NCBI GenBank assembly: GCA_903861015.1
Contig: CAIOSL010000025.1
Coordinates: 1-9,473, forward strand
From: an uncultured bacterium
GTDB taxonomy: Bacteria > Patescibacteriota > Saccharimonadia > Saccharimonadales > Saccharimonadaceae
DNA: 9,473 bases
Direction of reading: 5' to 3'
Positions 202 through 9,473 of the stretch are shown here, piece after piece (the first letter of the stretch is position 1; every line of letters starts with the position of its first letter). The notes beneath the pieces are model-generated. The model was not told the origin of the DNA. It saw only the letters and a program-made list of their open reading frames with translations, and made no database searches. Position numbers and translations under genes: made by a program.

Positions 202-218
202 CTAAGTTCATTTTTCAT

Positions 219-407
219 CCACCGTTCACCATGACAATACTAATATAATATCCTGTTTATCTGACGCGGCAATAATAATGTCTGGTTTGCTTTGTGCCCT
301 GCGTAACTCACTTTGTTCAGACATACTCGGATAGCAAGGCACTCCAGCCATTATTATTCCGGTCATCTAAGGGATATTATATTAGTATCGTCATGTTGAA
401 CGGCTGG
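219..407 (+). repeat. Palindromic element, copy 1: two-stem hairpin with conserved loops
   Basis: The outer arms 222-253 and 372-403 are complementary over 32 bases with 2 mismatches. Inside them an inner stem pairs about 269-298 with about 331-360, including AATAATAATG against CATTATTATT. Between the stems is an internal loop whose 5' side, with the end of the outer stem, reads ATCCTGTTTATCTGACGCG (250-268); the other side is 361-370, followed by GGGATATT. The apical loop is 301-330 (GCGTAACTC ... ACATACTCGG). All these loop motifs, plus GTTGAACGGCTGG at 395-407, recur in inverted orientation in the element at 1375-1607. Copy 1 sits between the convergent ends of sbcB and the repressor gene, so it could also act as a terminator. 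It carries no ORF. It may be a structured RNA, a MITE-like element or a recombination hairpin. The strand given is the one matching the minus strand of copy 2; transcription is not shown. Confidence 0.85.
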
Positions 408-430
408 CGACTTATTGGTATTGATTAAAA

Positions 431-658
431 CTACAGACCCTTAAATAGTTGCTCAATCGATATATCCAAAGATTCTGCTATTTTATATAAAGTCGAAATT
501 GTTGGCTTGCGACGACCTTGTTCAATGAAGCCTATATGTGAGCGATCGATGTTGCTCTCTGATGCCAGATTTTCTTGGGACATGTTTTTTGCTTTGCGAG
601 CGGATATTATGCGCTTGCCGATTTCTTTGTATATTTCTTCGATGGATTTTTTACTCAT
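431..658 (-). CDS. Small XRE/Cro-C1 family helix-turn-helix transcriptional regulator
   Basis: This 75-residue protein is a single HTH domain with almost no extra sequence. The segment RKAKNMSQENLASESNI (helix 1 end, helix 2 and turn), then DRSHIGFIEQGRRKP (recognition helix and following turn) and TLYKIAESLDISIEQLF (helices 4-5), is the classic Cro/C1 pattern. Such proteins bind short palindromic operators as dimers and usually repress their own and a neighbouring promoter. It is divergent from the DUF4352-type gene at 755, and the 96-base gap holds three TGATTACA-type sites, the likely operators. The ATG at 658 is the best start; a weak AGG lies 8 bases before it. I could not identify a convincing promoter for it. 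The gene is more AT-rich than uvrA and may be part of an accessory insert. Family assignment is firm; the target is inferred. Confidence 0.9.
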   Translation of the reverse strand: MSKKSIEEIYKEIGKRIISARKAKNMSQENLASESNIDRSHIGFIEQGRRKPTISTLYKIAESLDISIEQLFKGL

Positions 659-671
659 ATCTAAAGCCTAT

Positions 672-689
672 TGATTACAAAAGTAAGTA
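672..689. promoter_or_regulatory. Operator-like site O1 (imperfect palindrome)
   Basis: The left arm TGATTACA (672-679) is perfect. After a 2-base spacer (AA) the right half AGTAAGTA is a degenerate version of TGTAATCA. It lies 13 bases upstream of the repressor start codon, so occupancy would fit autoregulation. Its centre is 20 bases from O2. Binding is inferred. Confidence 0.6.
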
Positions 690-691
690 AC

Positions 692-709
692 CACTGACAT
701 TTGTAATCA
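692..709. promoter_or_regulatory. Operator-like site O2 (one perfect half-site), over the -35 of the DUF4352 gene
   Basis: The right arm TGTAATCA (702-709) is perfect and the left arm CACTGACA keeps only about half of TGATTACA. The divergence coincides with the -35 hexamer CTGACA (694-699), so the site may be a compromise between promoter and operator. Binding here would block RNA polymerase at the DUF4352-type gene. Confidence 0.6.
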
Positions 710-722
710 GATAGTTTATAAT
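694..722 (+). promoter_or_regulatory. Sigma70-type promoter of the DUF4352-type gene
   Basis: A -35 CTGACA (694-699, 5 of 6 to consensus) is followed after exactly 17 bases by a consensus -10 TATAAT (717-722). Transcription would start near 729, inside operator O3. Both hexamers are overlapped by operator-like palindromes, so repression by the divergent XRE protein is the simplest reading. Confidence 0.8.
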
Positions 723-739
723 GATTACAAATGTAATCA
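722..739. promoter_or_regulatory. Operator-like site O3 (perfect 8-bp arms)
   Basis: TGATTACA (722-729), spacer AA, TGTAATCA (732-739) is a perfect inverted repeat. It overlaps the last base of the -10 box and the predicted start of transcription. It is the best of the three sites and its centre is 30 bases from O2, so the three centres are spaced by about two and three DNA turns, as expected for cooperative dimers on one face. Confidence 0.78.
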
Positions 740-754
740 ACGAAAGGTATTCGT

Positions 755-1315
755 ATGGGAAGTGACAGTAAAAAAACTAACTGGTTTATGAGACATAAAG
801 TATTATCAGCTATTGGCGTGCTTGTGATAATAAGTGCCATTGCGTCATCTAGTAATAGTCAAACGGCGACAAAAGTTAGCGATGCTTCTAGTAACAATCA
901 AACGACATCAACTACCAAAGAGCAAACTGTATTTAAGGTCGGTGATGTAATCAGTTTTGATAGCAAAAAATTGACTGTTACTTCTGCGGAACGTAATTGG
1001 AATAGTGGGAATGAATACATAAAACCGCAGAGTGGTAATGAATTTGTAAAAGTTCAGGTTGCAATCGAGAATAATTCAAACAATCAGATTTCATACAATA
1101 CCTTTGATTGGAAGATGCAAGATTCGCAAGGAGTTATTAAGGATATCTCAGCCAATACTTATATGGCTGACGGTAATCTTGGTAGTGGTAATCTAGCTGC
1201 GAACGGTAAAGTATCAGGATCGTTGATATTTGAAGTTACTAATGGCGACAAAGGCTTGGTTTTGCAATATAATCCATCTTTTTGGTCAGATAAAAAGCTG
1301 GAGATTCAACTGTAA
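755..1315 (+). CDS. Membrane-anchored or secreted protein with DUF4352-type (immunoglobulin-like) domain
   Basis: This is a 186-residue protein. After a short charged N-terminus (KKTNWFMRHK) comes one hydrophobic segment, VLSAIGVLVIISAIAS (about 17-32), acting as a signal anchor or signal peptide. No lipobox cysteine is present, so it is not a lipoprotein. A Ser/Thr/Asn-rich linker (33-58) leads to a beta-rich domain (about 60-186). That domain has VGDVISF, then EFVKVQVAIENNSNNQISYN, DWKMQDSQG and GSLIFEV, the pattern of the extracytoplasmic DUF4352 fold, which has no known enzymatic activity. The start ATG at 755 has an SD-like GAAAGG 7 bases upstream. It is divergent from the XRE regulator and followed by a strong terminator. 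A hand-counted line (781-840) is 37% G+C against 45% in a line of uvrA (1801-1860), consistent with acquired DNA. Specific function unknown. Confidence 0.75.
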   Translation: MGSDSKKTNWFMRHKVLSAIGVLVIISAIASSSNSQTATKVSDASSNNQTTSTTKEQTVFKVGDVISFDSKKLTVTSAERNWNSGNEYIKPQSGNEFVKVQVAIENNSNNQISYNTFDWKMQDSQGVIKDISANTYMADGNLGSGNLAANGKVSGSLIFEVTNGDKGLVLQYNPSFWSDKKLEIQL

Positions 1316-1332
1316 ACGAATCATCAAGTTTT

Positions 1333-1365
1333 ATAGCCTGAATACATAATTCAGGCTATTTTTTT
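1333..1365 (+). terminator. Rho-independent terminator after the DUF4352-type gene
   Basis: An 11-bp perfect stem (ATAGCCTGAAT 1333-1343 with ATTCAGGCTAT 1349-1359) has a 5-base loop and is followed by a run of T to 1365. It lies 17 bases past the stop codon and would isolate this gene from the element and uvrA downstream. Confidence 0.9.
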
Positions 1366-1374
1366 AATAAAATA

Positions 1375-1607
1375 CCAGCCATTCAACTTATCGCAAGCGC
1401 ATTGCGAGCTATTTCTTATACAATATCCCTTTGGCTGGCCGTTAAAATTCAATCAACTGAACCATGCTACCCGAGTATGTTTGAGTAAAGCGAGTTACGC
1501 AGAATACATAGTTTAGTTGATTTAATTTTAAGCGCGACAGACAAACAGGATGTTGGGTAAGTAATAGTGAGCGATGCGGTATATAGATAGTTATACTAGC
1601 GGACTGG
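1375..1607 (-). repeat. Palindromic element, copy 2 (inverted relative to copy 1)
   Basis: Read on the minus strand this has the same order as copy 1. ATCCTGTTTGTCTGTCGCG (1551-1533) matches copy 1 at 17 of 19. The apical loop at 1500-1471 matches at 26 of 30, and all four differences are transitions. GGGATATT follows the inner stem (complement of 1422-1429), and GTTGAATGGCTGG (1387-1375) matches 12 of 13. The inner stem pairs 1442-1465 with 1508-1531 (24 bases, 3 mismatches). Its sequence is unrelated to the inner stem of copy 1, yet it is still self-complementary. The outer stem, from about 1375-1422 against 1550-1607, is longer and looser than in copy 1 (roughly 70% with bulges). The element lies between a terminator and the uvrA promoter, in the 327-base gap before uvrA. 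It carries no ORF. Confidence 0.82.
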
Positions 1608-1642
1608 AATATTTTGATTAAAAAGAGTATAATAATTGGGCT
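1605..1642 (+). promoter_or_regulatory. uvrA promoter, apparently leaderless
   Basis: A consensus -10 TATAAT lies at 1628-1633 and the uvrA ATG begins only 9 bases after it, so the transcript would start about 2-3 bases before the start codon or at it. No SD sequence could fit. The -35 region (1605-1610, TGGAAT) is poor and abuts the end of element copy 2. Confidence 0.7.
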
Positions 1643-4456
1643 ATGTCAGAGGTAATTAAAGTTGTTGGTGCCCGCGAGCACAATCTAAAGAATATCAGCG
1701 TCGAGATTCCGCGCGATAAATTAGTTGTGATTACTGGGTTGTCGGGATCGGGCAAATCGTCACTAGCTTTTGACACGATCTATGCCGAGGGCCAGCGGCG
1801 TTATGTCGAGAGTTTGTCGAGTTATGCTCGGCAGTTCTTGGGCATGATGGAAAAACCAGACGTTGATTATATTGAGGGCCTCAGTCCGGCGATCAGCATC
1901 GACCAAAAATCAACCAGTCGCAACCCACGCAGTACGGTAGCGACCGTGACCGAAATTTATGATTATTTGCGTCTACTTTATGCCAGGATTGGCGTGCCGC
2001 ATTGTCCGGTTTGTGGCAAGTCGGTTTCGCGTCGAACATCTGAAACGATTATTGACGAAGTGATGAAGTTGGTTGAGGGCACCAAAATTATGGTTTTGGC
2101 GCCAATTGTCAAAGCCAAAAAAGGTGAGTTTGCCCACATCTCTGAACAATACAGCCGTAATGGCTTTGCTAGGGCTCGGGTGGATGGTGTGGTTTACGCG
2201 CTGGACGAGTTTCCAACGCTTGATAAAAAATACAAACACAATATCGAGATTGTAGTTGATCGTATTGCGATGTCGGCCGAAATGACCGGGCGCGTCACAC
2301 AGTCGGTCGAACAAGCCTTGGAGCTAGCAGACGGTGTTGTAGAAATCTTGAACACTGACGACAATACAGTATCGACCTACAGCCAGCGCTACGCTTGTTT
2401 GGACCATCCAGACGAGGATATCCCCGAGCTTGAACCGCGCCTGTTTAGCTTTAATGCTCCACAAGGGGCGTGTCCGGTTTGTATGGGTCTGGGTATGCGC
2501 CTAGAGGTTGACCCAGACTTGGTTTTTAACCCAAATCTGACAATATCCGAGGGTGCGATTCGACCGTACAACAGGGTAAATAGTGACGCCTGGTATATGA
2601 AACGCCTAACCAAAGTGGCCGAGGCGCATGGGTTTAGCGTTCATGTACCGGTCGGACAACTGTCACCTGACGACCTCAACAAAATTCTTTACGGTACCGG
2701 CAATCAAAAATACACGGTCGAGTTGGGCAATGGCCGCAATTACGATTCAACTTACGAAGGTGTTATCCCTAATCTTGAACGTCGCCACAAAGAAACCGAC
2801 AGCGAATTTATGCGCAAAGACATCGAACGTTTTATGCGCGAACGTCAATGTTACACATGTAAAGGCGCCCGTTTAAAACCAGTTGTATTAGCGGTTACTG
2901 TCCATGGTTTGAGTATTATGGACGTTTGTAATTTGGATATTAATAATGCGTTGGATCTTTTTCAGAATACATTAAAACTTGATGACAAAGAGCAGTTTAT
3001 TGCCTCGCAAATTACCAAAGAAATCATGTCACGCTTGGGCTTTATGAACAATGTCGGTTTGGGCTATATCGAGTTGGGACGAGCGGCCAATACTTTGTCG
3101 GGCGGCGAGGCGCAGCGTATTCGTTTGGCAACCCAGATTGGTTCGGGCTTGCAGGGGGTACTTTATGTTTTGGACGAGCCGTCGATTGGGTTGCATCAAC
3201 GCGACAATGGTCGCTTGATCGAAACACTCAAGCATTTGCGCGATTTGGGTAATACCGTGATTGTGGTCGAACACGACGAGGACACAATTCGACATGCTGA
3301 TTATCTGTTGGATATTGGCCCTGGGGCAGGCCAGTTGGGCGGGCATGTTGTAGCATCCGGCACTCCGGAAGAGGTCTCTAGGGACAGTAATAGTGTTACC
3401 GGCCGTTATCTAAGCGGCGCCGAAAAAATCGAAGTTCCCAAAAAACGTCGGCCGATTTTGCAAGATCGCCAATTGATCGTCCGCGGGGCACGCGAAAATA
3501 ATCTTAAAAATATTGACGTAGCTTTTCCGCTGGGCGTTATGACAGTGGTTAGTGGTGTTAGTGGCAGCGGCAAGTCAACTCTGGTAAATGATATCTTGGC
3601 CAAAGAATTATTGGCGCGTTTGCATCACGCGCAGGTTGTTCCGGGTGTTCATAGTAATATTGACGGCGTCAAATTGCTCGACAAAGCGATCGTGATTGAT
3701 CAGTCGGCAATTGGCCGTACGCCAAGGTCTAACCCAGCTACCTACACCGGTGTCTTTACGGCAATCCGCGAGCTGTTTGCCTCGACGCCCGAAGCCAATA
3801 TTCGGGGTTACAAGGCTGGTCGGTTTAGCTTTAATGTCAAGGGTGGCCGCTGCGAAAACTGTCAGGGTGATGGTGTAATCAAGATTGAAATGCACTTTTT
3901 GCCAGATGTTTATGTGACATGTGATGTCTGTAAAGGCAAGCGCTATAACCGCGAAGCGCTCGAAATCAAATACAAAGGCTCGACCATTAGCGATGTTTTG
4001 GAAATGACAGTCGAACAATCGGCCAAGTTCTTTGAGAATGTTCCGGCGATTGCCAGAAAACTCGATACATTGGTCGAAGTTGGTTTGGGCTATATTCGTT
4101 TAGGTCAACCGGCCACAACATTTAGTGGCGGCGAGGCTCAGCGTATCAAATTAGCCAGCGAGCTGGCCCGTCGATCGACCGGCAAGACGCTTTATATTTT
4201 GGACGAGCCAACTACTGGTTTGCATAGTGCCGATGTCAAACGCCTGCTGGCGATCTTGCAGCGCCTGGTCTCGGGCGGCAACAGCATGGTTATTATCGAA
4301 CATAATTTGGATGTAATCAAAACCGCCGATCATTTGATCGACATGGGACCTGAGGGCGGTATGGGTGGCGGTGTGGTAGTAGCCAGCGGCACCCCCGAGG
4401 ATGTGGCCAAAAACTCCGCTTCGTTTACTGGGCATTACCTAAAAGCTATGCTTTAA
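1643..4456 (+). CDS. uvrA: Excinuclease ABC subunit A (UvrA)
   Basis: At 937 residues this is full length for UvrA (about 940). UvrA is the dimeric ATPase that finds bulky DNA lesions and loads UvrB in nucleotide excision repair. ATPase I has Walker A GLSGSGKS (32-39), signature LSGGEAQR (485-492) and Walker B LYVLDEP (507-513). ATPase II has GVSGSGKS (638-645), FSGGEAQR (827-834) and LYILDEP (850-856). The second zinc module is intact, CX2C-X19-CX2C at C737, C740, C760 and C763. In the first, C277 and C280 are present, but the upstream pair is C252-X2-H255 rather than CX2C, so His probably replaces one ligand. The ATG at 1643 follows the TATAAT box by 9 bases, suggesting a leaderless transcript. 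The gene ends 6 bases from the convergent DedA gene with no obvious terminator hairpin between. No frameshift or truncation seen. Confidence 0.98.
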
Positions 4457-9127: not shown

Positions 9128-9473
9128 AAACCCCCTGGGTTATGGTGTACGTTTTGATCAGCAACAACTGTTTACATTGAAAGATGCCACCTAATGTATG
9201 CCTTTCATAAGAGCCGCTGGCAGAAAAGGTTTCCTGCCTGTTTAGGGTACGCCAGGTTCCAAGGTCCTTTCTTTAGCACCCCGCCGGGCTGCACTCCTGC
9301 CTGGTGGGTTCGGCCAGGGACCACCTTCTGGGTCTTAAAGTGATGACCTGTGTGACCACTCATCCGCTCTGCCCGCCATCACAGCCCGCCCCACGTTGGA
9401 AGTCCATCTTGGCTATCACAGCCTGGTGTTTTGTGTTGTCAGAAAGAGAGACAGAGAGCGAGCAGAACCACCC
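9092..9473. other. Probable non-bacterial (vertebrate-like) sequence joined to the contig
   Basis: From shortly after the last recognisable UvrC codon the sequence changes character. There is no bacterial-style ORF, and G+C is higher (57% in the line 9301-9360). CpG is depleted: I count about 11 in 9128-9473, roughly half of what base composition would give, while CpG is frequent in the flanking genes. It ends with a GA-rich simple repeat (AGAAAGAGAGACAGAGAGCG) of vertebrate type. No gene, RNA or insertion-sequence end was recognised. The exact junction is uncertain, between about 9080 and 9130. Host DNA in a metagenome assembly is the most likely source; an unusual bacterial non-coding region is the alternative. 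Confidence 0.6.

Follow-up and report, generated by a model that had tools for sequence, protein, structure and literature searches.

Two large hairpins that face each other in the window (the whole stretch of 9,473 nt analysed here, an entire contig, G000:C25, of a small genome) probably form the ends of a mobile element that is absent from the catalogues searched. Their family has stems that covary and loops that stay fixed; its neighbouring copies pair convergently, and several sites are occupied per genome. Occupation of an orthologous site varies between genomes, copies are found inside open reading frames, and at one site the same hairpin pair encloses unrelated DNA. The reading to which we give about an even chance is that the hairpins bound a single non-autonomous mobile unit, that a recombinase encoded elsewhere would recognize them in their folded single-stranded form, and that the genes for a HTH protein and a DUF4352 protein are exchangeable cargo. 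The first-pass annotation, which had proposed either a structured RNA or a hairpin-DNA mobile element, is supported in this, the second option being the better supported; it missed that the pair is the unit and that its interior is exchangeable.

The pair is flanked by the tail of an exonuclease I-like gene (1–201) on one side and by uvrA (1643–4456) on the other. Copy 1, of the short-apex form, is the left end of the proposed unit (221–410, plus strand; match 248–378 to the model R1 described below, 118 bits), and copy 2, also short-apex but of another stem type, is the right end (1375–1580, minus strand; R1 match 1422–1553, 137 bits). Both copies had initially been placed at 219–407 and 1375–1607; two copies are indeed there, and their approximate ends are better read as given here, from a common ACC start and GGCTRGC end judged by eye, with copy 2 being without the terminal GCGA of the usual 3′ end. 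The interior (411–1374), which is the proposed exchangeable cassette and matches a cassette bracketed by hairpins in another species of the genus (G006), comprises a gene for a Cro/C1-type HTH protein of 75 aa (431–658, minus strand; PF01381, E 8.6e-16) and a gene for a DUF4352 protein of 186 aa (755–1315, plus strand; PF11611, E 3.6e-24). Between these genes, positions 669–751 hold repeated, inverted TGATTACAAA/TTTGTAATCA units that resemble an operator of the HTH protein. At the far end of the window, past the uvrC stop, positions 9128–9473 look vertebrate-like by eye and possibly represent a chimeric or contaminated contig end.

The outer arms of copy 1 (222–253/372–403) pair over 32 nt with 94% complementarity, confirming the 32 self-pairing bases described at first, and its inner arms (271–294/335–358) over 24 nt with 83%. 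The self-pairing inner arms claimed for copy 2 are paired in the computed fold yet absent from the inverted-repeat listing. Folds of 209–415 (plus strand, z −11.9) and 1365–1615 (minus strand, z −5.0) each beat 200/200 dinucleotide shuffles. The two copies share an inverted match of 102 nt (238–339/1462–1563, 71%), in which the loops align (GCGTAACTC..CATACTCGG, CCTGTTT.TCTG.CGCG, AAGGGATATT and GGCTGG) whereas most stem columns do not, the arms pairing within each copy; a common architecture with fixed loops, and stems that differ between copies and still pair with themselves, are thus both borne out. The conserved apical motif (299–330, plus strand, in copy 1, with a mini-hairpin; 1471–1502, minus strand, in copy 2; both from loop alignment and apex scoring) had been described as a conserved 30-base loop, and it is conserved, although in most copies it contains a variable mini-hairpin of its own (at least 2 bp in 29 of 35 distinct apices scored; 1 in window copy 2). 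GNA/GNNA loops at the apex were considered and rejected, being found in only 11 of the 35.

Of 149 related genomes searched as DNA with copy 1, 13 gave matches; 10 belong to the genus (the window's own genome included), while G077, G092 and G117 look like chance matches when judged by their folds. Two models were built, R1 from alignment A2 (20 copies, cores of 131–134 nt) and R3 from alignment A4 (15 long-apex copies); both also match their own building copies, and they find matches in 17 (R1, E 1e-3) and 19 (R3) of the 28 genus genomes. Merged, and with one row dropped as an opposite-strand double match (G016:C4:137579), they yield 78 copies in 19/28 genomes, from 1 to 16 per genome, in which long and short apex types were assigned by a 15-bit difference between R3 and R1; the further copies in related genomes on which the first-pass annotation had staked its claim are therefore present. 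Since several contigs end at hairpins, the element seems to break assemblies and these copy numbers are lower bounds; contigs that end in or next to a hairpin are G006:C17, G011:C7, G011:C29, G017:C2, G017:C5, G019:C72 and G021:C27. Copies in the same genome have long stretches in common. To the right of several single copies (L073, L078, L079, L085) there is a CAGACTGTGCCGGTAGGCAGCCGAACGCCA-like sequence that may be another partner hairpin. The earlier statement that the element fits no known RNA family agrees with Rfam (release 15), in which no family reached its gathering score, either in the window or for the elements of 20 loci from across phyla, these loci giving two tRNAs only. In relaxed scans the window scored 25 bits and another copy 32.8 bits against MIR2863 (gathering score 94), read as the resemblance of any long hairpin to a miRNA precursor; a Lachnospiraceae copy had no match. 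In a single literature library, sequence searches found no paper, and among the papers listed by keyword none described these hairpins.

The family extends beyond the genus. The apex form of divergent copies, used as a 31-base pattern, matches at least 120 stretches in genome_contigs, and the taxa among the matches listed (80 titles) are Nitrospira, Nitrospirales, Lachnospiraceae, Bacteroidales, beta- and gammaproteobacteria, Sulfurimonas, Desulfobulbaceae, Patescibacteria and Saccharibacteria; the phyla with the loop motif include Patescibacteria, Nitrospirota, Bacillota, Bacteroidota and Pseudomonadota among those matches. Isolates with the motif in this list include Pseudobutyrivibrio sp. 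YE44, Barnesiella sp. An22 and Iodobacter sp. BJB302. Because the search pattern fixes the apex, apex identity in these matches is given by construction, the adjoining stems being free. A third model, R2, which is mainly a sequence profile with four outer pairs offset by one column, found 2 to 25 matches in each of 15 genomes chosen for holding the motif; in 379 genomes of the phylum, 24 match at E 1e-4 and 11 below 1e-8, at least one of the latter (G094) folding doubtfully. Exact patterns of the window's own apex had no matches in genome_contigs or viral_contigs, a 24-base form of the wider motif had none in viral_contigs, and a typed 36-base consensus had none in plasmids, phages or E. coli (E 0.01).

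Covariation of the stems lies above shuffled and slid controls in three alignments, and the outcome that had been named as fatal to the structural claim, covariation no greater than chance, did not come true. In A2 the score is 0.377 compared to 0.119 for shuffled alignments and 0.026–0.102 for slid partners; 23 of 36 pairs are changed on both sides with pairing kept, and both-side changes occupy 107 cells and one-side changes 6. The long-apex alignment A4, with its branched apex, scores 0.340 against 0.132 shuffled. A5, which brings together 66 non-redundant segments from several phyla, scores 0.570 against 0.194 shuffled (slid 0.078–0.252), and its both-side changes fill 129 cells against 58; two further measures in A5 are inseparable from shuffles, namely both-side-changed pairs (6 vs 6.0) and further pair types (reached by 45/500). 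Kinship among copies raises such scores, and the slid controls preserve kinship. The first-pass annotation took compensating change in the stems as the mark of selection on structure; the covariation itself stands, but it is no proof of selection on its own, since a palindrome whose arms copy each other can give the same signal.

All 17 pairs of genus copies that lie within 1.5 kb of each other are convergent, none being divergent or tandem, so the pair looks like the unit. In these 17 pairs the apex types are long with short in 11, short with short in four and long with long in two, and the gaps measure 35–133 nt in 12 and 364–1175 nt in five; many other genus copies are single, these being draft genomes. 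The 7-bp inner ends are spaced by 16 nt in three compact pairs and by 13, 59 and 61 nt in three others. The two window copies are 65.6% alike, and they are 84.7% and 88.6% like the plus and minus copies, respectively, of a cargo-free pair elsewhere in G006, a comparison of the window pair with drafts only; the tree of hairpin copies is largely unresolved. Outside the genus, among the matches listed, most copies are single, and neighbours closer than 1.5 kb are convergent at four pattern loci and in the same direction at one. In a proteobacterial MAG (G161) the dimer itself is the repeat: seven loci have a common dimer left end, five of which continue into the second hairpin, some of the loci break off where their contig ends, and among certain left flanks and right ends the resemblance reaches beyond the matched unit. 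No target duplication was seen in the G161 units or at the sbcB-uvrA site. In two of the G161 loci (L376, L378) about 75 nt of similar sequence, judged self-complementary by eye, are inserted into the apical loop of a single hairpin per dimer, the left in one and the right in the other. For REPs it has been argued that heterodimers may persist because two arms of the same sequence would make an unstable palindrome (PMC3733652), and by analogy the same argument could apply to heterodimers of large hairpins.

Orthologous sites differ in what they hold. uvrA was found in 24 of the 28 genus genomes. Between sbcB and uvrA, G008 has 47 bp and G026 has 56 bp; R1 matches occupy this gap in G000, G006 and G017, and the remaining genomes have other DNA there, the sbcB end not being found in two. 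G006 has at uvrA a hairpin pair without cargo. Directly upstream of uvrA at the same sbcB-uvrA site, G004 (L299) and G007 (L302) have a second hairpin type with a common GGCGCCGGGGCCC-like core. The window cassette has its counterpart at a different site of G006, beside a TylF-like gene, between a long-apex and a short-apex hairpin (window 428–1308 vs L067 282–1162, 82.5% identity over 881 nt; the contig begins inside the left hairpin); the G006:C17 proteins are 88% (HTH) and 85% (DUF4352) identical to those of the window. At the TylF site of G007 the same two hairpin types surround a TM2/Lipoprotein_Ltp gene, and at that of G020 there is one hairpin, with an unrelated and unbracketed neighbour gene. 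The clearest exchange is at rpoC-rpsL in two species (G015 and G019), where the flanks and both hairpins are common (91.8% and 87.3%), homology ends at the outer-arm ends (the inner hairpin ends of the pair), at most about 20 nt from where the models end, and the two interiors have no match to one another. The G015 interior contains a 138-aa ORF without Pfam match, and that of G019 a tRNA (RF00005, 39 bits; L345 1000–1124) with a long extra stretch and, by eye, an anticodon loop CTAAGGA; ARAGORN found no tRNA between the hairpins, including L345, where Rfam calls one. rpsL was found in 25/28 genus genomes, with R3 matches beside it in two of the 25 (G015 and G019) and rpoC out of reach in six others; at most sites the pair is present in few genomes. 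Copies also lie inside open frames, in ABC ATPase and RecJ genes of G004 and twice in RecJ in G498. RecJ genes from two different families of the phylum (L099, L333) both have in-frame copies.

Palindromes scattered through bacterial genomes are generally classed as short REPs, of which many are linked to RAYT transposases. As described in PMC3733652, REPs are dispersed extragenic palindromes of 20–40 bp in several phyla that form inverted dimers, many of them heterodimers, with DNA that may be inserted between the partners; they lie between tandem or convergent genes and avoid divergent gene pairs, some are inside genes, and CGTC-family REPs also occur without an adjoining RAYT. The hairpins share with REP/BIME/REPIN sequences the dispersed palindromes, the opposite-orientation dimers (17/17 neighbouring pairs), often heterodimers, the insertable DNA, the few divergent flanking gene pairs (6/78 and 4/41), the in-gene copies and the spread over several phyla. 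They differ in measuring about 190–206 nt (in the window) instead of 20–40 bp, in their conserved asymmetric internal loops, in having no GTAG or CGTC tag seen (the genus end is GGCTRGCGA in 54 genus rows, by eye) and, compared with GTAG REP families, in that no RAYT adjoins them (0/20 Y1 loci). On account of the size, the unseen tag and the lack of an adjoining RAYT, they are regarded as REPIN/BIME-like in working and are not filed there. MITEs and composite transposons are non-autonomous inverted ends with or without cargo at several sites per genome, and the pairs resemble them in each of these respects, but the ends here are self-folding hairpins, no target duplication was seen (G161, sbcB-uvrA) and no related autonomous element came up among the loci analysed. 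Integron attC sites are folded single-strand hairpins beside exchangeable genes in a same-direction array; that idea is borrowed here, whereas these hairpins face each other, with no same-direction neighbours within 1.5 kb in the genus. Likewise, IS200/IS605 elements have subterminal hairpins read as single-stranded DNA, an idea also borrowed, whereas here two copies of one hairpin family face each other and Y1 was not found in 7/15 carriers, in G000 or between the window hairpins.

Membership of a REP/BIME/REPIN family with a RAYT (Y1) transposase as its mover would account for the opposite-orientation dimers, many of them heterodimers, the avoidance of divergent gene pairs and the in-gene copies, as reported for REPs (PMC3733652), and Y1 genes do occur in 17/28 genus genomes, in 10 of the 11 whose best R1 match reaches at least 100 bits compared to 7 of the 17 others (hand count). 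The size of the hairpins (about 190 nt vs 20–40 bp) and the location of Y1 nevertheless make it quite improbable: R1 finds nothing at E 10 in any of the 20 Y1 loci of the genus, different short palindromes occur at the three inspected, and Y1 had no match in 7/15 carrier genomes of other groups (some incomplete). Y1/RAYT as mobiliser is therefore unsupported, the co-occurrence standing against this outcome. The palindromes near Y1 genes at L232, L238 and L242 (AACCAGGGTC..GGTT and AAAAGGTCCGTCCTTTT) are as expected of ordinary REPs. Among neighbour genes that do not overlap the element, no family occurs in more than seven loci. It is also unlikely, though somewhat less so, that the family is a structured non-coding RNA, which would be made from the element's own promoter, would bind a protein or ligand through its conserved internal loops and would be dispersed only secondarily. 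The covariation with fixed internal loops, the branched long apex and a strand asymmetry of the mismatches are in its favour: in the long arms of 110 hairpins, read on the query strand, A.C outnumbers G.U (163 vs 100; by hairpin, 53 vs 30), as in the 28 best hairpins (70 vs 32, p 2e-4) and in the genus (121 vs 46, in 28/54 copies, the other 26 not matched by the apex expression), the copies in these counts not being independent. On the other hand, the sign of the asymmetry differs between long arms and apex, since the seven pairs adjoining the apex have 27 A.C vs 31 G.U, and the inner four 1 vs 12, in the opposite direction. A working strand had been proposed from these mismatches, and the claim is withdrawn, as the long arms favour the complement of copy 1 and the apex-adjacent pairs do not; the pattern hints at a single-stranded working form without naming the strand. 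No Rfam family exceeds its gathering score, and the hairpins have no orientation bias to flanking genes (tandem gene pairs 27 vs 20, of 78, and 13 vs 16, of 41). There is likewise no overall bias between leading and lagging strands (60 vs 51; genus 26 vs 26). In G456:C3 all 11 R2 matches are on one strand over about 0.9 Mb, unlike other sets. The mobile-DNA reading is better supported than the RNA reading, by the convergent pairs, variable sites, copies within open frames, cargo exchange and lack of orientation bias.

The strongest rival for the cargo part is that the hairpins are passive, ordinary homologous recombination between dispersed copies and flanking genes swapping the interiors with no dedicated enzyme. 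It gains from the 87–92% identity of hairpins and flanks between species at rpoC-rpsL, from the long common stretches of same-genome copies and from the absence of any enzyme found nearby; it does not specially predict convergent-only pairing (17/17) or junctions at both inner hairpin ends and leaves the spread over phyla unexplained, and we hold it to be improbable, if less so than the RNA. Neutral palindromes kept perfect by arm-to-arm template switching, with covariation as a result of copying and not of selection, would fit the excess of both-side over one-side changes in A2. This is the least probable of the explanations weighed, because asymmetric internal loops stay fixed while stems change (the apex of A5 is fixed by the search pattern) and because pairing is directed and convergent.

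Under the preferred reading of the hairpins as the ends of a mobile unit, a dedicated enzyme would move the pair or swap its interior, the folded single strand would be what the enzyme sees, and the fixed internal loops would be its signal, the stems needing only to pair. Against this reading, no movement was observed, and neither target duplications nor exact outer ends were found. A broader version, tentative and rather doubtful in our judgement, is that facing hairpins with a cross-phylum loop signal constitute a new class of mobile DNA, in which they would serve as single-stranded recombination sites and a recombinase would move the pair and swap cassettes. In any case, this is a family of paired hairpins much larger than REPs, with no Rfam entry and no adjoining gene found, and in very small genomes it brackets exchangeable genes. 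Should the hairpins prove passive, the family still accounts for repeats at many contig ends; if the mechanism is true, it would imply a wide-ranging recombinase and a way for Saccharibacteria-like cells to exchange genes.
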